DNA of 51,059 nt from Streptomyces fulvoviolaceus (GTDB lineage: Bacteria; Actinomycetota; Actinomycetes; Streptomycetales; Streptomycetaceae): assembly GCF_000718165.1 (NCBI RefSeq), contig NZ_JOEY01000058.1:1-51059 (forward strand). Reading direction: 5' to 3'. A program made the position numbers and the translations under genes. Under the pieces are notes generated by a model. It ran no database searches. It saw only the letters and a program-made list of their open reading frames with translations, and had not been told where the DNA came from. Of the stretch, positions 1 to 51,059 are shown piece after piece (within the stretch, counting starts at the first letter, position 1; each line of letters starts with the position of its first letter).

Positions 1-31
1 ACCGTCCAGGCCGACCGGCGTGCCCTCGGGC

Positions 32-193
32 GTGAGGGACCCCGCCCCCGCATCCCCGGACCACGGACACGATCCGTGCCGCCGGACCGCGGAGCGAACA
101 CGGGCAACCAGAACGCCCAACACCGTTCGGAGCGTTCGGCTGAGCATGAATCCTGGCAACAGGACTCACTCCCGCTCAGTCCTTAGGAACGGT
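32..193 (-). repeat. Left copy of the terminal inverted repeat
   Basis: Read on the minus strand, this 162-bp stretch matches 50898-51059 on the plus strand with 10 substitutions and no gaps (my manual alignment). It contains three hairpins also present in the other copy: TCCTG/CAGGA around a TTGC loop inside CTGAGC/GCTCAG, GAACGCTC/GGGCGTTC, and CACGGA/TCCGTG. An ATG at 147 (minus) opens a frame to the window edge starting MLSRTLRTVL, but most differences from the other copy change amino acids, so I do not call it a gene. The sequence runs 31 bp further to the window edge. Likely a multicopy genomic repeat at which an assembly stopped; identity not recognised. Confidence 0.85.
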
Positions 194-202
194 GCGCGTC
201 CT

Positions 203-931
203 TCAGGAGAGCCAGTCGGCGTAGTGGGTGGGGGCGAGGTGAGCGTCCTTGTCGGTGAGGACGTCACCCTTGACGACGGCGAACATGCCGGCGGTGGGGT
301 CGGTGACGACCGTACGGCTGTCGCCCTTGTGGGACAGGGTGATCCGGCCCAGCTCGTCCAGGGCGAAGACCTCGGGGCCGCCGATGTTGCGCATGCCGTT
401 CAGCGGAGTGCCCGCGGCGACGTCCGTCACCGCCGCGGCCACGTCCTTGGCCGCGATCGGCTGGATCGGCGTGGCGGGCAGCCGGACGGTGTCGCCGTCG
501 GCGGTCCAGGACAGGACGGCGTCGATGAACTCCATGAACTGCGTCGCCCGGACGATCGAGTAGGGGATCGGCCCGGCTGCGAGGAGGTCCTCCTGGAGCA
601 CCTTGGCCCGGTAGTAGTCCAGCTCCGCCACCTGGTCCGCGCCGACGATCGAGAGGATGACGAAGTGGCCGACGCCGCCCTTGTGGGCCGCGGCCAGCAG
701 GTTGTCCATCGAGGCCTGGAAGAAGGCCGGGGAGGCTTCGTCGAAGGTCGGGGAGTTCGTCAGGTTGACGACGACGTCGGCTCCCGCCACCGCCTCTTCC
801 AGTCCCTGGCCGCTGATGACGTCGACGCCGGTGGACTGCGAGTGCGGTACCGCCTCCTGTCCTGCGGCGTTCAGGTTCTTGACGACCTGCGACCCGATCA
901 GTCCGGTGCCGCCGATGACTGCGAACTTCAT
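203..931 (-). CDS. NmrA-like atypical SDR, NAD(P)-binding
   Basis: A 242-aa protein with an N-terminal Rossmann motif GGTGLIG (residues 7-13) and an SDR-like YxxxK pair (Tyr106, Lys110). Proteins of this type (NmrA/atypical SDR) bind NAD(P)H and either reduce small substrates or sense redox state; the substrate cannot be read from the sequence. The ATG at 931 is preceded by GAAAGG about 7 nt upstream. The frame stays open further upstream, but that part lacks family character and would overlap the nitroreductase. It lies 29 bp downstream of the nitroreductase on the same strand, so the two probably form a cytoplasmic redox operon. Confidence 0.9.
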   Translation of the reverse strand: MKFAVIGGTGLIGSQVVKNLNAAGQEAVPHSQSTGVDVISGQGLEEAVAGADVVVNLTNSPTFDEASPAFFQASMDNLLAAAHKGGVGHFVILSIVGADQVAELDYYRAKVLQEDLLAAGPIPYSIVRATQFMEFIDAVLSWTADGDTVRLPATPIQPIAAKDVAAAVTDVAAGTPLNGMRNIGGPEVFALDELGRITLSHKGDSRTVVTDPTAGMFAVVKGDVLTDKDAHLAPTHYADWLS

Positions 932-3108: not shown

Positions 3109-3987
3109 GTGCCGCAGCGAACCGCACCGTCCATTCCTCCGGCCGTTGCCGAATGGCTGCAGGTCACGGGACACGGCAAGGCCACCGACATCGAGCAGTT
3201 GCACGGCGGGGCCATCAGTTCCACCACCCGCATCACCGGCTCCTCCGGCACGAGCTGGGTCCTCAAGCAGTCCGCCAACGCCCCCGCCGACCTCTACCGC
3301 CGGGAGGCCGAGGGCCTACGGCGTCTCGCCGCGGCCGGAGCCCTGCCCATACCGAAGACGCAGCTGTGCGCAGAGCAGTACCTGCTCCTGGAGGATCGCG
3401 GGAGCCACGCCTTCACCCGTGACACCTGGGTACAGCTCGGCCGGGGGCTGGCCCGGCAGCACCAGGTCACGAGCGAGCGTTTCGGTTACGACACCGACAA
3501 CTACATCGGCCGGATGGTGCAGCGGAATCCCTGGACCGACGACGGCCACGCCTTCTTCGCCGAACACCGGCTGCTGTCCTGGCTGGACGCACCCGCCTGC
3601 GCCCAGGCACTGGGCCAGAAGAACCGGGCACGCCTGGAACGCCTCGCGCACCGGCTCCCCGACCTGATCCCGCGGCAGCCCGCCGCGCTGCTCCACGGCG
3701 ACCTGTGGCACGCCAACATCCTCCCGAGCCACTACGGGCCGCCCTCCCTGTGCGATCCGGCCGTGCATTACGGCTGGCCCGAGGCGGAGCTGAGCATGCT
3801 GTACGGATGCGGCCCGGTTCCGGAGGATTTCTCGGCCGCGTATGAGGAGCTCCACCCGCTGGAAGACGGCTGGCGGGATCGGCTGCCCATCCTCCACCTG
3901 CGTGAACTCCTCAGCGTGCTGGCGCACTTCGGCGACAACGACGAGACGCTCCACAGGATCACCGAAGTCCTGGACGTCTACACCTGA
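3109..3987 (+). CDS. Fructosamine kinase family protein
   Basis: A 292-aa protein-kinase-like fold of the fructosamine/ketosamine-3-kinase group. Visible elements are the ATP-contact VLKQ (51-54) with Glu68, the catalytic loop HGDLWHANIL (196-205) and the metal-binding DPAVHYG (216-222), the family's version of DFG. These enzymes phosphorylate sugar adducts on protein amines, leading to deglycation; related bacterial proteins may use other substrates. The start is GTG 3109 with GGAGGA at 3095-3100. The frame extends upstream into DNA that encodes marR on the other strand, so earlier starts are unlikely. It stands alone between marR and a GNAT gene. Confidence 0.9.
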   Translation: MPQRTAPSIPPAVAEWLQVTGHGKATDIEQLHGGAISSTTRITGSSGTSWVLKQSANAPADLYRREAEGLRRLAAAGALPIPKTQLCAEQYLLLEDRGSHAFTRDTWVQLGRGLARQHQVTSERFGYDTDNYIGRMVQRNPWTDDGHAFFAEHRLLSWLDAPACAQALGQKNRARLERLAHRLPDLIPRQPAALLHGDLWHANILPSHYGPPSLCDPAVHYGWPEAELSMLYGCGPVPEDFSAAYEELHPLEDGWRDRLPILHLRELLSVLAHFGDNDETLHRITEVLDVYT

Positions 3988-4011
3988 GCCGGACCCCGGC
4001 CCCACCTTAAA

Positions 4012-4069
4012 GAAACGCTTGCGTTTCGCTCGGGCCCCACGTAACGTATAGGTACGAAACCGTTTCGTA
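4012..4069 (+). promoter_or_regulatory. Promoter flanked by two palindromic operators
   Basis: GAAACGC-TT-GCGTTTC (4012-4027) overlaps a -35-like TTGCGT (4019-4024). A 17-bp spacer leads to TAACGT (4042-4047), and a second palindrome TACGAAA-CCG-TTTCGTA (4053-4069) follows. Both carry GAAAC/GTTTC half-sites as used by LacI- or TetR-type repressors. The promoter would serve the GNAT gene at 4147. No regulator of those families is encoded nearby. Confidence 0.55.
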
Positions 4070-4146
4070 TCGATGTGCGCCCCGGCCGCGCCGCACCGGA
4101 CAGCACCCCCAGTACCGGGCCCGCGGCCCACCCGGGAGAACACGCA

Positions 4147-4794
4147 ATGACAACTCTGCAGCTGCACCCCCGCACCACCGTGCGCGCGGCGGGACTGGTG
4201 GACGTACCAGCCGTTGTACGTCTCTTCGCGCCGCCCCCGGCCTCGCCCCGGCTGACCGTGTCGGACCCGGACAGCCCCGCCGTCGACTGGGAGCAGGCTC
4301 AGCGCGCCATGCGGCTGATGCTGGCCCACCACGCACTCGAAGAGGGCCAGGTGTGGGTGGCCGAACGCGCGGACGGCGCGCTCCTCTCGGCCGCGATCTG
4401 GCTGCCGCCCGACATCGGGACCGGGTCTCCCGACCCACGCATCAGCAGCCTTCTCGCCCGTGAACTCGACATCTCCCTGCCCGAGCGCCCGGTCCTGTCC
4501 ACGGCGCTGGGGGCAGCCGGACCCGACGCACCGCATTGGACATTGGTCACCGTTTGCGCGCCGGACGACGCGGAAGCCTGCGACCGTACCGTGGTCGCCG
4601 AATTGCTGACCACGGGACTGGGCGCCGTGGACGGCGAGGACGCCACCGCCGTCGCGATCACGCTCTCCGCCCACCACGCGAACCAGTTGCGGCCGCTCGG
4701 GTTCCGCGGGCCGCGAGAAGTCCCCCTCGTGCCGGGCGCGAGCGTGTGGTTGACGACCCGTCACGGGCGGTCCGGCCGTGCGGACCGCGGCTGA
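4147..4794 (+). CDS. GNAT-family N-acetyltransferase (putative)
   Basis: A 215-aa protein whose layout (N-terminal RAAGLVDVPAVVRLF, a central WVAERADGALLSAAIWL strand pair, and a late ANQLRPLGFRGPREV segment) fits the GNAT fold. The acetyl-CoA loop is poorly conserved, so substrate and even activity are uncertain. The ATG at 4147 has GGGAGAA upstream; the frame is open earlier but lacks a ribosome site there. It is preceded by a promoter with two operator palindromes, implying tight repression, and followed by a small basic-protein gene on the same strand. Confidence 0.7.
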   Translation: MTTLQLHPRTTVRAAGLVDVPAVVRLFAPPPASPRLTVSDPDSPAVDWEQAQRAMRLMLAHHALEEGQVWVAERADGALLSAAIWLPPDIGTGSPDPRISSLLARELDISLPERPVLSTALGAAGPDAPHWTLVTVCAPDDAEACDRTVVAELLTTGLGAVDGEDATAVAITLSAHHANQLRPLGFRGPREVPLVPGASVWLTTRHGRSGRADRG

Positions 4795-6991: not shown

Positions 6992-9900
6992 ATGACGTAC
7001 ATCGCACGTCCGCGCAGCCGCGCGAGACGCTGGGCGGGCCGTCTCGCCGGCCTGACCGCCGCGTCGCTGTTCCTGGGCCTCGCCGCACCTGTCGTCCCCG
7101 CGCAGGCGGCGGACACCGCGGACGTCACCGATGGGCTGGCCCTCTGGTACAAACTCGACGGCGCCTCCGGCAGCACCGTCACCGACGCCTCCGGCAACGG
7201 CCGCGACGGCACGGTGAACGGGACCGCCGGCTGGTCGGACACCGGGCAGGGGCTCGCCTTCAACGGCTCCGACACCTACGTCAAGGTGCCGGACGACGTC
7301 ATGAAGGGCATGGACGCGATCACCGTCTCGACGGACGTGCTGATCGACTCCGCCCAGAGCACGCCGTACTTCGTCTACGGCTTCGGCAACTCCAGCGGGA
7401 GCAGCGGGAACGGGTACCTGTTCACCACCGGCAACTCCCTGCGCACCTCGATCGCGACCGGCAACTGGTCGACTGAGCAGACCACCAAGCCCGCCGACTC
7501 GCACAACCTGACCCGCGCGGTGTGGAAGCACCTCACCTACACCCAGACCGGCACCACGGGTGTGCTGTACGAGGACGGCGTCGAGGTCGCCCGCAACACG
7601 GCGGTCACCATCACGCCCGGCGACATCGGCTCGGGCGCCACCACCGCCAACTACATAGGCAAGTCGGTCTACTCCGGCGACAAGCTCTTCAAGGGCAGCA
7701 TCCGCGACTTCCGGGTCTACGACCGGGCCCTGGACTCCTCCGAGGTCGAGCAGCTGGCCCTCCCGGTCGCCACGCAGGGCGTCGCCGACGACAAGGAGGC
7801 GCTGAGCCTCGGCGACACCAGCGCGGTCACGGCCGACCTGGACCTGCCGAAGACCGGGACGGCCGGCGGGTCCACGATCAGCTGGGCCAGCGACAACGCC
7901 TCCGTGGTGTCGGACAGCGGCAAGGTCACCCGCCCCGCCGCCGGTGAACCGGACGGCCACGCCACGCTCACGGCGACCCTGACGAAGGGCACCGTGACCG
8001 CCACCAAGACCTTCGACGTCACGGTGCTGCCCGACTTCGACGACGAGACGGCCACCGACCAGGCCGCCCAGGCCCTCACCGTCCACAACCTCGACGACGT
8101 GCGCGGCAACCTGACCCTCCCGGCGACCGGTTCGTACGACACGGAGGTCGCCTGGACCTCGGCGAACCCGGACGTCGTCTCCGCCGAGGGCGTGGTCCAC
8201 CGCCCCGCGCACGGCGACGGCACCACGACCGTCGAGCTGACCGCGACCGTCACCAAGGGTGACGCGAAGACGACCCGCGCCTTCACCGCGAAGGTCCCCG
8301 AACTCCCCCAGCAGGAAGCCCTCAAGGGCTATATGTTCAGCTACTTCACCGGCGAGGGCACCTCGGACGGCGAGCAGCTCTACGCCGCGCTCAGCAAGGG
8401 CAACGACCCGCTCAAGTGGCGGGAGTTGAACGACGGCAAGCCGGTCCTGACCTCCACGCTCGGCGAGAAGGGCCTGCGCGACCCGTTCATCATCCGCTCC
8501 CCCGAGGGCGACAAGTTCTACCAGATCGCCACCGACCTGAGGATCTACGGCAACGGCGACTGGGACGCCTCGCAGCGCACCGGCAGCAAGTCCATCATGG
8601 TCTGGGAGTCCACCGACCTGGTGAACTGGACCAACCAGCGCCTGGTCAAGGTCTCCCCCGACAGCGCGGGCAACACCTGGGCGCCGGAGGCGTTCTACGA
8701 CGCGCAGCTCGGCGAGTACGTGGTCTTCTGGGCGTCGAAGCTGTACGACAACGAGGCCCACTCCGGCGACACGTACAACCGCATGATGTACGCGACGACC
8801 CGTGACTTCTACACCTTCAGCGAGCCCAAGGTCTGGGTCGACCGCGGCTACTCGGTCATCGACTCCACGGTCATCCAGCACGACGGCACGTACTTCCGCC
8901 TCTCCAAGGACGAGCGGAACAACACCTCCTCCACGCCCAACAGCAAGTTCATCTTCGAGGAGAAGAGCGACTCGCTCCGCAACCTCTCCTGGACCTCGGT
9001 CGCCGAGGGCATCGGCAAGGGTGAGATGAGCGCGGCCGAGGGCCCGTTGGTGTTCAAGTCGAACACCGAGGAGAAGTGGTACGCGTTCCTCGACGAGTTC
9101 GGCGGTCGCGGCTACATCCCCTTCGAGACGACGGATCTGGCCTCCGGGGTCTGGACCCCGTCCACCGGCTACGACCTGCCGTCCAAGCCCCGGCACGGCA
9201 CGGTGCTCCCGGTCACCCAGGCCGAGTACGACCGGCTGCTGAAGACGTACCAGCCGGACCAGATCATCACGGGCGTCGAGGACGTCAAGGTCGAGACGCG
9301 CATCGGCCAGGCCCCGGTCCTGCCTGCCACCGTCATCGCCGAGTCCGCGGACGGTGTGAAGCGGCCCGTCGCCGTCACCTGGGAGGACGTGGCCGAATCG
9401 CAGTACGCGCAGGCCGGCACCTTCCCGGTGAAGGGTGACCTGGCGGGCGACTCCGCGATCGACGTCAGCGCCGAGGTCACGGTCTCCGCCGAGGGCCCGG
9501 ACGTCCCGGCCGACCTGCTCCTGCACTACGACTTCGACGAGACCGGCGGCAGCATCGCCCGCGACTCCAGCGGCCACGGCTACCACGGCACCTACGTCCG
9601 TACGCCCGACTTCGGCACCGGTGTCGAGGGCGGCTCGTTCAAGATGTCCGGCGGCAACAGCAGCTCCAGCTCGCCGTACGTCAAGATCCCGGGCGGCGTG
9701 CTGAAGGACACGAACAGCGTCACCGTCTCCACGTACGTCAAGTGGAAGGGCGGCGACAACTTCCAGTGGCTGTTCGGACTCGGCCCGGACAGCAACAAGT
9801 ACCTGTTCGCCACCCCGTCCAACGGCGCCGGCAAGCTGTTCTCCGCGATCACCAAGGCCACCTGGTCCGGCGAGAAGCAGATGATCGGCGGCTCCCGGCT

Positions 9901-12202
9901 CACCGCCGGCGAGTGGCAGCACCTCACGGTCACCCTGGACGGCGCGACCGAGACGGCGATCCTCTACGTGGACGGCGCCGAGGCGGCCCGGGTCAACGGG
10001 GTCACCGTCAAGCCGTCCGAGCTGTACGACTCGGCGAAGGACTACTCCGGCTACATCGGCAAGTCCCTCTACTCCCCCGACCCGTACTTCGGTGGCGAGG
10101 TCGACGACTTCCGGATCTACAACCGGGCCCTGACGCCCGCCGAGGTCCTGGAGATCAGCGGCAACACCACCGGGATCGCGGGGGCGACCCACCCGGCGCT
10201 GAAGACCGACGCGATCATCACCGACAAGAGCAGCAAGATCGTCCTGCCGCTCACCCCGGGCAGTGATGTCACCGCCCTGGCACCGGAGTTCACCCTCGCC
10301 CACGGCGCGAGCATCAGCCCCGCCTCCGGCACCCTGCGCGACTTCACCAAGCCGGTGACATACGAGGTCACGGGGTCGGACGGCAAGAAGCGCACCTGGA
10401 CGGTCTCGGCGGCGGTCATGAAGAGCCCGGTCCTGCCCGGTCTCAACGCCGACCCGAACGTGGTCCGCTTCGGCGACACCTTCTACATCTACCCGACCAC
10501 CGACGGCTTCGAGGGCTGGAGCGGCACGCAGTTCAAGGCGTACTCCTCCAAGGACCTGGTCCACTGGACCGACCACGGCGTCATCCTGGACCTGGGTCCG
10601 GACGTCTCCTGGGCGGACAGCAGGGCCTGGGCGCCGGCCATGGAGGAGCGGAACGGCAAGTACTACTTCTACTTCTGCGCCGACGCGAACATCGGTGTCG
10701 CGGTCTCCGACTCACCCACCGGCCCGTTCACGGACGCGCTCGGCAAGCCGCTGCTGAAGGCCGGTGACCACACGGGCCAGATGATCGACCCGGCCGTCTT
10801 CACCGACGACGACGGCACGTCGTACCTGTACTGGGGCAACGGCCGCGCCTACGTGGTCCCGCTCAACGACGACATGGTCTCCTTCGACGCCTCGAAGGTC
10901 ACCGACATCACGCCGAGCAACTACAACGAGGGCTCCTTCGTCATCAAGCGCAAGGGCACCTACTACTTCATGTGGTCGGAGAACGACACACGTGACGAGA
11001 ACTACCAGGTCGCCTACGCCACCGGCTCCTCGCCCACCGGTCCCTGGACCAAGCAGGGCGTGATCCTGGAGAAGGACCTCTCGCTCGGCATCAAGGGCCC
11101 CGGCCACCACTCGGTGGTCCACGTCCCGAACACCGACGACTGGTACATCGTCTACCACCGCTTCGCCATCCCCGGCGGTGACGGCATGCACCGCGAAACC
11201 ACCATCGACAAGCTGGAGTTCGACGCCGACGGTCTCATCAAGAAGGTCGTCCCGACACTGACGAGCATCGACCCGGTCACCATCGTCCACGCCGGCCCCG
11301 ACGCGGACGGCACCGAGGGCGACGCGATCCAGCTGAACGGCACGCTCTCCGGAGCGGGCAGCCCGAAGTGGACGGCCGAGGAAGGGGCGCCCTGCACCTT
11401 CGCCGACGCCGGAGCGGCGAAGACCACGGTCACCTGCACCGACGACGGCACCTACGAGGTCACCCTGACCGGCAGCCGCAGCAGCGACACGGCGACCGTC
11501 GAGGTCGCCAACGCGGCGCCGGCCCTCACGTCCGCCACAGGGCCGAAGTCCCCGGTCGCGGTGGGCAAGCGGGCGGTCGTCACGGCCGAGTTCACCGACC
11601 CGGGCACGAGCGACACCCACACCTGTGCGGTCGACTGGAAGGACGGCACGGAGCCGACCGACGGCACGGTCACCGGCACCGGCTGCGAGGCCGAACACAC
11701 CTACACCAAGGCGGGCATCCGTCACCCGGTGATCACCCTCACCGACGACGACGGCGCCTCGGACAGCGAGACGCTCCCCGAGCTGATCGTCTACGACCGC
11801 TCCGCCGGGCCCGCACTCGGCACCGGCGTCTTCACCTCCCCGGCCGGTGCCTTTCCCGCCAAGCCGGACCTGACCGGCAAGGCCGCCTTCTCCTTCACCG
11901 CCTCCTACCCGAAGGGGGCAACGCTTCCCGTCGGAAACGTGTCCTTCGACTTCGGTCCGGCGAAGCTGAAGTTCCGCTCGACCGGCTCCGACTGGCTCGT
12001 GGTCACCGGCTCCCAGGCCGTGTACCAGGGATCCGGCACGGTCAACGGCACCGGCGGCTACGGCTTCCGTGTCACCGCCGCCGACACCCCGGACACCTTC
12101 CGCATCAAGATCTGGAAGAAGTCCGGCGGAGAGGTCGTCTTCGACAACATCACCAGCCCCAAGCTCACCGGCATCGTGACGATCGGCGATCGCCGACGGT
12201 GA
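6992..12202 (+). CDS. Secreted protein with two LamG-GH43 glycosidase units
   Basis: 1,736 aa with a signal peptide ending AQA near residue 37. In order: LamG-like lectin (about 47-253), two atrophied Ig-like modules (256-440), GH43 five-blade propeller (444-752), Ig-like module (754-833), second LamG (836-1056), linker module (1068-1144), second GH43 (1146-1425), PKD/Ig-like modules (1433-1603) and a C-terminal beta domain. Candidate GH43 triads are Asp497, Asp624, Glu683 and Asp1154, Asp1266, Glu1313. GH43 enzymes remove arabinose or xylose from plant arabinan/arabinoxylan. The ATG at 6992 follows AGGGAAA. A strong terminator follows; the short remnant beyond it is on the other strand. Exact linkage specificity of either unit is unknown. 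Confidence 0.9.
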   Translation: MTYIARPRSRARRWAGRLAGLTAASLFLGLAAPVVPAQAADTADVTDGLALWYKLDGASGSTVTDASGNGRDGTVNGTAGWSDTGQGLAFNGSDTYVKVPDDVMKGMDAITVSTDVLIDSAQSTPYFVYGFGNSSGSSGNGYLFTTGNSLRTSIATGNWSTEQTTKPADSHNLTRAVWKHLTYTQTGTTGVLYEDGVEVARNTAVTITPGDIGSGATTANYIGKSVYSGDKLFKGSIRDFRVYDRALDSSEVEQLALPVATQGVADDKEALSLGDTSAVTADLDLPKTGTAGGSTISWASDNASVVSDSGKVTRPAAGEPDGHATLTATLTKGTVTATKTFDVTVLPDFDDETATDQAAQALTVHNLDDVRGNLTLPATGSYDTEVAWTSANPDVVSAEGVVHRPAHGDGTTTVELTATVTKGDAKTTRAFTAKVPELPQQEALKGYMFSYFTGEGTSDGEQLYAALSKGNDPLKWRELNDGKPVLTSTLGEKGLRDPFIIRSPEGDKFYQIATDLRIYGNGDWDASQRTGSKSIMVWESTDLVNWTNQRLVKVSPDSAGNTWAPEAFYDAQLGEYVVFWASKLYDNEAHSGDTYNRMMYATTRDFYTFSEPKVWVDRGYSVIDSTVIQHDGTYFRLSKDERNNTSSTPNSKFIFEEKSDSLRNLSWTSVAEGIGKGEMSAAEGPLVFKSNTEEKWYAFLDEFGGRGYIPFETTDLASGVWTPSTGYDLPSKPRHGTVLPVTQAEYDRLLKTYQPDQIITGVEDVKVETRIGQAPVLPATVIAESADGVKRPVAVTWEDVAESQYAQAGTFPVKGDLAGDSAIDVSAEVTVSAEGPDVPADLLLHYDFDETGGSIARDSSGHGYHGTYVRTPDFGTGVEGGSFKMSGGNSSSSSPYVKIPGGVLKDTNSVTVSTYVKWKGGDNFQWLFGLGPDSNKYLFATPSNGAGKLFSAITKATWSGEKQMIGGSRLTAGEWQHLTVTLDGATETAILYVDGAEAARVNGVTVKPSELYDSAKDYSGYIGKSLYSPDPYFGGEVDDFRIYNRALTPAEVLEISGNTTGIAGATHPALKTDAIITDKSSKIVLPLTPGSDVTALAPEFTLAHGASISPASGTLRDFTKPVTYEVTGSDGKKRTWTVSAAVMKSPVLPGLNADPNVVRFGDTFYIYPTTDGFEGWSGTQFKAYSSKDLVHWTDHGVILDLGPDVSWADSRAWAPAMEERNGKYYFYFCADANIGVAVSDSPTGPFTDALGKPLLKAGDHTGQMIDPAVFTDDDGTSYLYWGNGRAYVVPLNDDMVSFDASKVTDITPSNYNEGSFVIKRKGTYYFMWSENDTRDENYQVAYATGSSPTGPWTKQGVILEKDLSLGIKGPGHHSVVHVPNTDDWYIVYHRFAIPGGDGMHRETTIDKLEFDADGLIKKVVPTLTSIDPVTIVHAGPDADGTEGDAIQLNGTLSGAGSPKWTAEEGAPCTFADAGAAKTTVTCTDDGTYEVTLTGSRSSDTATVEVANAAPALTSATGPKSPVAVGKRAVVTAEFTDPGTSDTHTCAVDWKDGTEPTDGTVTGTGCEAEHTYTKAGIRHPVITLTDDDGASDSETLPELIVYDRSAGPALGTGVFTSPAGAFPAKPDLTGKAAFSFTASYPKGATLPVGNVSFDFGPAKLKFRSTGSDWLVVTGSQAVYQGSGTVNGTGGYGFRVTAADTPDTFRIKIWKKSGGEVVFDNITSPKLTGIVTIGDRRR

Positions 12203-49414: not shown

Positions 49415-50779
49415 ATGCCCCGCCCCCTGCGGGTAGCCATCGTCGGAGCCGGCCCCGCCGGGATCTACGCCGCCGACGCGCTGCTCAAGTCCGATGTGGC
49501 CACCGAACCCGGTGTCTCCATCGACCTCTTCGAGCGGATGCCGGCCCCGTTCGGACTGATCCGTTACGGCGTGGCCCCGGACCACCCCCGGATCAAGGGC
49601 ATCATCACAGCCCTCCACCAGGTGCTCGACAAGCCGCAGATACGCCTCTTCGGCAATGTCGACTACCCGACCGACATCAACCTGGACGACCTGCGCGCGT
49701 TCTACGACGCCGTGGTCTTCTCCACGGGCGCGACGGCCGACCGCGAACTGCGGATCCCGGGCATCGAGCTCGACGGCTCGTACGGCGCGGCGGACTTCGT
49801 CTCCTGGTACGACGGTCACCCGGACGTGCCGCGCACCTGGCCTCTGGAGGCCGAGAAGGTCGCCGTCCTCGGCGTCGGCAACGTCGCACTCGACGTGGCG
49901 CGCATCCTCGCCAAGACCGCCGACGAGCTGCTCCCGACGGAGATCCCGCCGAACGTCCACGAGGGGCTCAAGGCCAACAAGGCCCTGGAGGTCCACGTGT
50001 TCGGCCGCCGTGGCCCGGCGCAGGCGAAGTTCTCCCCGATGGAGCTGCGGGAGCTGGACCACTCCCCCAACATCGAGGTCATCGTCGACCCCGAGGACAT
50101 CGACTACGACGAGGGCTCGATCGAGACCCGGCGCGGCAACAAGCAGGCCGACATGGTCGCCAAGACCCTGGAGAACTGGGCGATCCGCGACGTCGGCGAC
50201 CGCCCGCACAAGCTGTACCTGCACTTCTTCGAGTCGCCCACCGAGATCCTCGGCGAGGACGGCAAGGTGGTCGGCCTGCGCACCGAGCGCACCGCCCTCG
50301 ACGGCACCGGCAACGTCAAGGGCACCGGCGAGTTCAAGGACTGGGACGTCACCGGGATCTACCGCGCGGTCGGCTACCTCTCCGACAAGCTCCCCAAGCT
50401 GCCCTGGGACATCGACTCGGGCACGGTCCCGGACGAGGGCGGCCGGGTCATCCAGGAGAGCGGCGAGCACCTGCAGTCGACGTACGTCACCGGCTGGATC
50501 CGGCGCGGCCCCGTGGGCCTCATCGGCCACACCAAGGGCGACGCCAACGAGACGGTCTCGAACCTGCTGAACGACCACGCGAACGGCCGTCTGCAGACCC
50601 CCGCCTCGCCCGAACCCGAGGCCGTGGACGCGTTCCTCGCCGAGCGGGACGTCCGCTTCACCACCTGGGAGGGCTGGTACAAGCTGGACGCCGCCGAGAA
50701 GGCGCTGGGCGAGCCGCAGGGCCGTGAGCGCGTGAAGCTCGTCGAGCGTGAGGACATGCTCCGCGAGAGCGGCGCCTGA
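49415..50779 (+). CDS. fprA: Ferredoxin--NADP+ reductase (FprA, adrenodoxin-reductase type)
   Basis: 454 aa. FAD motif VAIVGAGPAGIYAADALL (8-25), the family stretch APFGLIRYGVAPDHPRIK, NADP motif VAVLGVGNVALDVARILA (about 149-166), FGRRGPAQAKFSPMELREL and a C-terminal second FAD contact GWIRRGPVGLIGHTKGDA. Transfers electrons between NADPH and ferredoxins, which feed P450s and other oxidases. ATG 49415 has AAGGGA upstream. Single gene with its own terminator. Confidence 0.95.
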   Translation: MPRPLRVAIVGAGPAGIYAADALLKSDVATEPGVSIDLFERMPAPFGLIRYGVAPDHPRIKGIITALHQVLDKPQIRLFGNVDYPTDINLDDLRAFYDAVVFSTGATADRELRIPGIELDGSYGAADFVSWYDGHPDVPRTWPLEAEKVAVLGVGNVALDVARILAKTADELLPTEIPPNVHEGLKANKALEVHVFGRRGPAQAKFSPMELRELDHSPNIEVIVDPEDIDYDEGSIETRRGNKQADMVAKTLENWAIRDVGDRPHKLYLHFFESPTEILGEDGKVVGLRTERTALDGTGNVKGTGEFKDWDVTGIYRAVGYLSDKLPKLPWDIDSGTVPDEGGRVIQESGEHLQSTYVTGWIRRGPVGLIGHTKGDANETVSNLLNDHANGRLQTPASPEPEAVDAFLAERDVRFTTWEGWYKLDAAEKALGEPQGRERVKLVEREDMLRESGA

Positions 50780-50787
50780 CGTAACGG

Positions 50788-50833
50788 ACGCCGGTCGTGC
50801 CGCGCCGCCGAGGCTGCGCGGTACGGCCGGCGT
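50788..50833 (+). terminator. Terminator of fprA
   Basis: 18-bp arms ACGCCGGTCGTGCCGCGC and GCGCGGTACGGCCGGCGT pair fully with two G-U pairs and a 10-nt loop, 9 bp after the stop. Confidence 0.88.
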
Positions 50834-50897
50834 TCTGTGTCCGCGGGAGCGGCGGGGCGGGCTTGCGCGACGGCAGGTACCTCCGCCGGTCCGTGGA

Positions 50898-51059
50898 ACC
50901 GTTCCTAAAGACTGAGCGGGGGTGAGTCCTGTTGCCAGGAGTCATGCTCAGCCGAACGCCCCGAACGGTGTTGGGCGTTCTGGTTGCCCGCGTTCGCTCC
51001 ACGGTCCGGCGGCACGGATCGTGTCCGTGGTCCGGGAACGGGAGGGCGGGGTCCCTCAC
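50898..51059 (+). repeat. Right copy of the terminal inverted repeat
   Basis: Matches 32-193 in inverted orientation with 10 substitutions in 162 bp. Hairpin 1: TCCTG-TTGC-CAGGA (50927-50940), extended by TGA/TCA and enclosed by CTGAGC (50912-50917)/GCTCAG (50946-50951). Hairpin 2: GAACGCCC/GGGCGTTC (50954-50980). Hairpin 3: CACGGA/TCCGTG (51013-51029). An ATG at 50944 opens a frame starting MLSRTPRTVLGVLVARVRST to the window edge. AGGAG lies only 3 nt before it, too close to act well. The repeat is cut by the end of the window. Confidence 0.85.

Follow-up and report, generated by a model that had tools for sequence, protein, structure and literature searches.

The ends of a 51-kb Streptomyces fulvoviolaceus contig appear to be right ends of an IS607-type TnpB-like element that encode a folded guide RNA

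According to the part of PMC10711439 that treats IS607 elements such as ISXfa1, these elements cross over at a GG, include a right-flanking base in the scaffold of their guide RNA (reRNA), use a GGG TAM and have a pseudoknot, which in ISXfa1 takes in both the crossover GG and the fixed base; in the same part, a zinc ribbon is present in "many", not all, TnpBs. A second group, IS607 TnpBs with RAGATH-18 RNA (e.g., ISFba1), has a G-rich TAM (AGGAG or GAGGG in the ISFba1 type) and an reRNA that the pertinent passage of PMC11061315 calls totally independent of the coding sequence. In the IS200/IS605 elements, TnpB is an RNA-guided nuclease with a right-end RNA (e.g., ISDra2; PMC8612924), this RNA overlaps the coding sequence (PMC11061315), TnpB processes its own mRNA into guide RNA (PMC10278001), the transposase is of the Y1 type and the scaffold ends at the element boundary (PMC10711439). 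IS1341-like elements carry tnpB without tnpA, and the definition quoted from PMC9956272 removes elements with serine-recombinase remnants.

The element described here shares with ISXfa1 and other IS607 elements the GG crossover, the fixed right-flanking base, the G-rich site before the guide, a putative right-end reRNA and a possible pseudoknot at its 3' end that likewise takes in the crossover GG and the fixed base, and some of its relatives carry an IS607 TnpA beside tnpB. However, its TnpB-like protein of ~543 aa lacks a zinc ribbon, its scaffold lies inside the tnpB frame, and most relatives have no tnpA motif upstream. It resembles the RAGATH-18 systems in its IS607 TnpB and G-rich TAM, whereas its scaffold is nested in the coding sequence. 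With IS200/IS605 TnpB it has in common a predicted RNA-guided nuclease with a right-end RNA, and the overlap of RNA and coding sequence, but its transposase would be a serine recombinase and its scaffold would run past the element boundary into the fixed base. Like the IS1341-like elements it may have tnpB without tnpA, whereas relatives in its TnpB family carry an IS607 tnpA. This is an ordinary kind of mobile element in a variant form, with a TnpB-like protein that has no zinc ribbon, a frame-nested scaffold and tnpB-less copies that fit the RNA model. Among the titles listed by literature searches for this lineage and for a frame-nested scaffold, none concerned a Streptomyces TnpB of this kind.

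The window, that is, the whole stretch of 51,059 nucleotides analysed here, is the whole of one contig (C58) in a genome of 11.58 Mb and 263 contigs. An earlier note on this DNA had described an inverted, gap-free pair of 162-bp sequences of about 94 % identity at the window ends, and this is borne out: positions 32-193, compared with 50898-51059 in reverse complement, agree at 152 of the 162 bases, and a blastn self-comparison of the window gives the pair E = 5e-65. The accompanying statement that the rest of the 51 kb is unshared very nearly holds; besides the end pair, the sole self-match at E <= 1e-5 is a weak direct repeat of 99 bp and 76.8 % identity (7651-7747 and 10051-10147). The 162 bp are not, however, an entire element: the edge at 193 / 50898 is the right end of an element, and the other edge is a contig break. 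The left copy extends to window base 1; the right copy is truncated where the contig stops. The length of 162 bp is an assembly boundary on one side, because five contig ends (the right end of C58, C97, C35, C56 and C89) stop at the same element base; others stop further inside. Searched with Rfam at gathering score, the window gave no match, and a tRNA scan of it found none.

A DNA search of the same genome returned 19 rows from 18 matching places, with one copy giving two rows. Eleven of the 18 matches lie 7 bases or less from a contig end (both ends of C58 and of C126, and C97, C35, C56, C89, C122, C19 and C38), five are internal (C44, C33, C43, C62 and C16), and those in C92 and C117 are on contigs that start inside the element and retain tnpB remnants upstream of the right end. 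The 5' part of the element was found at seven more contig ends (C43, C62, C61, C11, C116, C20 and C117), and a covariance model of the right end, described below, detects at least 24 right ends among the window and 29 other loci of this genome, the window's two included. The genome therefore holds many copies, as had been proposed, and not only the two that the earlier note had named as the outcome that would speak against its reading; the proposal that the assembly collapsed on them is supported by the 11 matches at contig ends. The near-identical copies are probably the cause of the assembly breaks there.

Table 1. Positions of the right-end copies and their predicted parts in the window
Feature	Coordinates	Strand	Evidence
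Copy 1: right end of an IS607-type TnpB-like element, with the 3' part of its putative reRNA scaffold	1..193	+	Covariance model hits 29-193, 170.8 bits, E = 1.1e-36
Copy 1, bases 1-28	1..28	+	Align to the same right-end family
Covarying helix 111-118 with 130-137, plus loop	111..137	+	Helix 6: both partners changed in 5/8 pairs, pairing in 95.8 % of cells
Possible pseudoknot loop, ACCGTTC, able to pair with the terminal GAACGGT (187-193)	122..128	+	Pairing counts in 78 named-genome copies
3' terminal hairpin of the putative reRNA	141..178	+	Fold of 141-181: -14.6 kcal/mol, z = -2.73, 4/200 shuffles as good
TAG, the tnpB stop codon in most relatives	184..186	+	tnpB ends there in 64/80 named-genome loci; frame in the window predicted
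Crossover GG and fixed right-flanking T	191..193	+	29/30 empty-site alignments continuous at the joint; GGT in 77/78 right ends
Predicted guide of copy 1 in the unique flank (taken as 20 nt)	194..213	+	First flank base evenly distributed, 78 copies
Right end and putative reRNA scaffold, copy 2, 5' side cut by contig end	50898..51059	-	Covariance model, 165.2 bits, E = 2.1e-35
GGT (50900-50898) and TAG (50907-50905) of copy 2		-
Predicted guide of copy 2 (20 nt assumed)	50878..50897	-	Sequence after GGT, minus strand

Each end of the window is very probably the right end of an IS607-type insertion element that carries a TnpB-like gene, and the two belong to different copies. Besides the tnpB-less copies treated below, such a gene lies upstream of the right end wherever the upstream sequence is readable, in this genome and in relatives. 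For the left window copy, tnpB would be expected upstream, past the contig end, and we infer its frame for that reason. One open, full-length tnpB of 543 aa was read in this genome (C33), and the C44 copy is broken into different frames. Complete relatives are mostly ~1.8 kb long and consist of a left end, tnpB and a right end, some with an IS607 serine-transposase gene in front; a left end was recognised in 49 of 78 named copies, and 39 of these 49 span 1793-1856 bp from GG to GG. The 80 named-genome loci used throughout were chosen by the rank of their protein match, which biases them towards intact copies. Right-end matches occur in 99 of 246 genomes of the genus, this genome included, the weakest of them near the threshold; three candidates were scored per genome, so this is a count of genomes rather than of copies.

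The TnpB-like protein has 5707 homologues at E <= 0.001 among 7995 scored candidates. Among the matches listed, 98 of 120 homologues are 540-550 aa long, many are named "IS200/IS605 family accessory protein TnpB-related" or transposase, and the named ones come mostly from Streptomyces. Even so, the protein falls below the cut-off of every curated family that it matches, namely NCBIfam guided_TnpB NF040570 (E = 6e-12, 45.5 bits, cut-off 100), TIGR01766 (30.5 bits, cut-off 32) and PF07282 (14.2, cut-off 26.3), as does the protein of a relative; thus, we refer to it as TnpB-like, although many homologues carry TnpB-related names. Solved Cas12f/TnpB chains match it weakly (best E = 0.024). The catalytic D-E-D of RuvC is present: in an alignment of 37 sequences, D311 and E372 are invariant and D449 is found in at least 90 %. 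Going by motif, we take these residues to belong to RuvC I, II and III. Between RuvC II and III, homologue alignments show no CxxC of a zinc ribbon in the consensus VDPAYTSxWGAQHW..RHDAAAVAIGRRA. In the same genome, 18 matches to the Cas12f1-like TNB domain (PF07282) exceed the cut-off, and the intact C33 copy is not among them; judging from these matches, other TnpB lineages coexist with this one.

An IS607-type serine recombinase, TnpA, is present for the family. One relative has a TnpA gene followed by tnpB, and this TnpA (L134, 2961-3572) matches the NCBIfam IS607 transposase NF033518 at 194.7 bits (cut-off 110). The C-terminal TnpA motif occurs no more than 900 bp upstream of tnpB in 13 of the 80 named loci and is absent in 67. 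The S. fulvoviolaceus genome has a single, truncated match to TnpA (residues 29-199 of 203). Contig C71 (L091, ~3740-4700) holds an IS607 tnpA remnant together with the start of a tnpB, and the search of the genome for relatives of this TnpA gave no other.

To look for empty sites, 246 genomes of the genus were searched with the joined flanks of seven insertions, with two candidates scored per genome, and uninterrupted relatives were present for four of the seven among the matches listed; for the other three (L175, L189 and L213), the same search, with its two candidates per genome, had no uninterrupted relative among the matches listed. When the exact joined flanks were aligned to 30 fetched loci (23, 2, 1 and 4 for the four sites), all alignments but one, which has a gap within 10 bases, were continuous across the joint, placing the crossover at GG|T without target duplication. 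The core of the empty site is GG in 23 of these relatives and CG (3), AG (1), GA (2) or TG (1) in the other seven, so the GG of the occupied site is sometimes missing from the relative. The four sites comprise two tnpB-only elements, one with tnpA and tnpB and one without tnpB; thus, all element forms share the same junction. At left junctions, G stands at -1 in 45 and at -2 in 38 of 49 copies. The T to the right is fixed, as its sole exception among 78 copies fits a misplaced right end in the parse of L209, and the first base after GGT is evenly distributed (G 20, C 19, A 18, T 21). Because the search patterns themselves required GG, the evidence on the target is limited to the outer Gs and the T. 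For the left window copy, the flanks in relatives are too diverged for this comparison to show an empty site. One database record (L147, NZ_QUAC01000058.1) repeats the right-end junction beside an N, probably through misassembly.

The right end looks like a TnpB guide RNA, with strongly covarying helices, a possible pseudoknot and a unique flank in the place of the guide. In an alignment of 45 copies (43 of 74 named-genome references plus the two window copies), 20 of 42 predicted pairs have changes on both sides. For the 32 pairs counted, 96.3 % of cells are paired, compared with 78.3 % in shuffles, and the covariation score is 0.453, compared with 0.146 in shuffles and at most 0.093 in slid controls; these comparisons are biased towards the structure, since it had been predicted from this very alignment. 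The covariance model was built from 40 named-genome copies with the window excluded, and it recovers both window copies (Table 1); in helix 6 of the left one, positions 117 and 131 form a non-standard C/A pair. Of the seven pairs in the possible pseudoknot, which includes the crossover GG and the fixed T, the first five are possible in all 78 named-genome copies, the sixth is possible in 61 and broken in 17, and the seventh is possible in 74; five of the seven are almost invariant and hence offer no covariation support. The 3' hairpin beats its shuffles in four of five folded sequences (the window and four relatives), the exception being L193. Another helix (alignment columns 27-35 with 45-53) occurs in many complementary versions, such as CACACG/CGTGCG, CTGCTC/GAGCAG, ACGACG/CGTCGT and others, between almost invariant flanks, and the versions sometimes differ between otherwise close copies. 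A claim that this helix is a "hypervariable barcode" was dropped: among the closest copies its fraction of changed pairs was 0.19, with 0.34 and 0.16 in two control helices, and the corresponding figures were 0.55 versus 0.29 and 0.28 at intermediate distance and 0.61 versus 0.50 and 0.49 for copies further apart.

Most copies of tnpB end on the TAG of TAGGAACGGT or a close variant of it (60 loci have it exactly), and this stop lies 7 nt before the guide; all of the scaffold but its final 7 nt is thus inside the reading frame. The region might be conserved since it also encodes a functional C-terminal tail of TnpB, and tnpB is indeed open across it. Among the copies ascertained by protein and parsed for frame (78 of 80 loci), the length of the tail is a multiple of 3 in 74, and a misplaced right end accounts for one of the four exceptions; among those found by right end alone (26 of 29 loci parsed), it is a multiple of 3 in 24, with no in-frame stop in any of the 26. 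New stops in frame 0 are also rarer than expected, with 1 instead of 22-36 in 51 copies and 0 instead of 5-14 in 30 others. However, the tail shows no amino-acid constraint: in the 51 copies, all with a 243-nt tail, substitutions ignore codon position (192/176/221), unlike those in the adjacent body (208/159/515), and on this evenness we reject protein dual coding as the main constraint. Moreover, frame 1 is stop-depleted as well (5 versus 20-23 expected in the 51 copies, 1 versus 7 in the 30 others) and open in 64 of 78 copies, frame 2 is not (29 versus 21-35 and 4 versus 6-10, respectively), and the near-constant tail length leaves few indels by which to test the frame. On balance, a coding function of the tail is improbable as the reason for its conservation; the constraint appears to be on the RNA first, with a possible benefit of the open frame. 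Another idea, which we regard as unlikely, is that the frame is kept open without amino-acid constraint since translation itself matters: ribosomes would unfold the scaffold, a transcript would serve as either message or guide, and tnpB-less copies would supply untranslated guides in trans. If true, the element would have a built-in switch between making TnpB and arming TnpB.

Copies without tnpB bear on the question of what the repeat is. Seven copies in this genome have no detectable tnpB in the loci read (C43, C62 and C35, each internal, and C16, C34, C17 and C18). They match the RNA model at 90-117 bits (L022, L023, L024, L098, L099, L100 and L101), four of them have a left-end candidate 283-366 bp from the right end, and by these matches they look like guide-only elements; the one in C16 is inserted in what we take to be an oxidoreductase gene. 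Read by themselves, such loci would fit a small independent repeat of the MITE or REP-like sort, unrelated to any gene-carrying transposon. We give this reading hardly any credence, and for the element family it is already contradicted: the right end is attached to tnpB in C33, C44 and the copies of relatives, C92 and C117 carry tnpB remnants upstream, the five 162-bp matches end at a contig boundary rather than at an element edge, and the tnpB-less copies are diverged, three being 70-73 % identical to the window copy and the other four 70-78 % identical to the C44 copy over the matched part. The inverted end pair could also be taken, as the earlier note had suggested, as recombination arms that invert the 50-kb interval, given its orientation and high identity and the fact that complete elements, at their usual length, are long enough for homologous recombination, although both window copies are cut by contig ends. 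Synteny is consistent with some rearrangement: in 3 of 18 relatives (G007, G009 and G026), the stretch matching ~49415-50779 is followed, after 127-142 bp, by sequence found here near the start of contig C20, and in another relative, G001, this counterpart lies ~1.15 kb further. It thus seems that an ancestral adjacency was lost at an element, whether through an insertion, a deletion or copies recombining with each other. Yet deletion, insertion or recombination between other copies explains the broken adjacency equally well, and with at least 24 such ends the window pair is not special; inversion between its two members is doubtful. Synteny likewise suggested that the right window end and C20 are the two sides of one insertion, a candidate that we rejected: the C20 counterpart is preceded by a left end and the C-terminal portion of a further gene, and since the flank of C20 is the interior of that gene, no simple empty site could be shown. 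In the three relatives, the gene at 49415-50779 is followed by a small secreted-protein-like gene, and this arrangement is interrupted here (window 50780-50897; L094, contig C20, 1-1093). The interrupting sequence consists of an element end and the C-terminal part of what we take to be an FAD monooxygenase.

For two right ends of an IS607-type element, the following mechanism may be proposed. The serine transposase TnpA would excise and insert the element by exchange at GG in a G-rich target (~GGGG|T) and would leave no duplication of the target. The element's final ~250 nt would be transcribed as the guide-RNA scaffold, with the host DNA beside the right end as the guide. TnpB and reRNA would then cut the restored empty site (G-rich TAM, fixed T, guide), which would favour re-copying of the element. 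Sequence comparison provides the identity of the ends, the copy number, the empty sites, the covarying structure and the IS607 TnpA beside tnpB in some relatives; we infer that the scaffold is transcribed and enters an RNP, that this RNP recognises a TAM and cleaves, and that copies lacking tnpA move in trans.

In practical terms, right ends of this element family break Streptomyces assemblies, and contig ends that fall in them call for caution. Beyond that, an apparent oddity of assembly leads to a right end that seems to specify a structured guide RNA for a predicted DNA-cutting, Cas12-like protein. The predicted RNA-guided system belongs to a large family of TnpB-like proteins that lack a zinc ribbon and have the guide RNA nested within their own coding frame. 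For a GC-rich host, it supplies guides and a G-rich TAM that can be tested.
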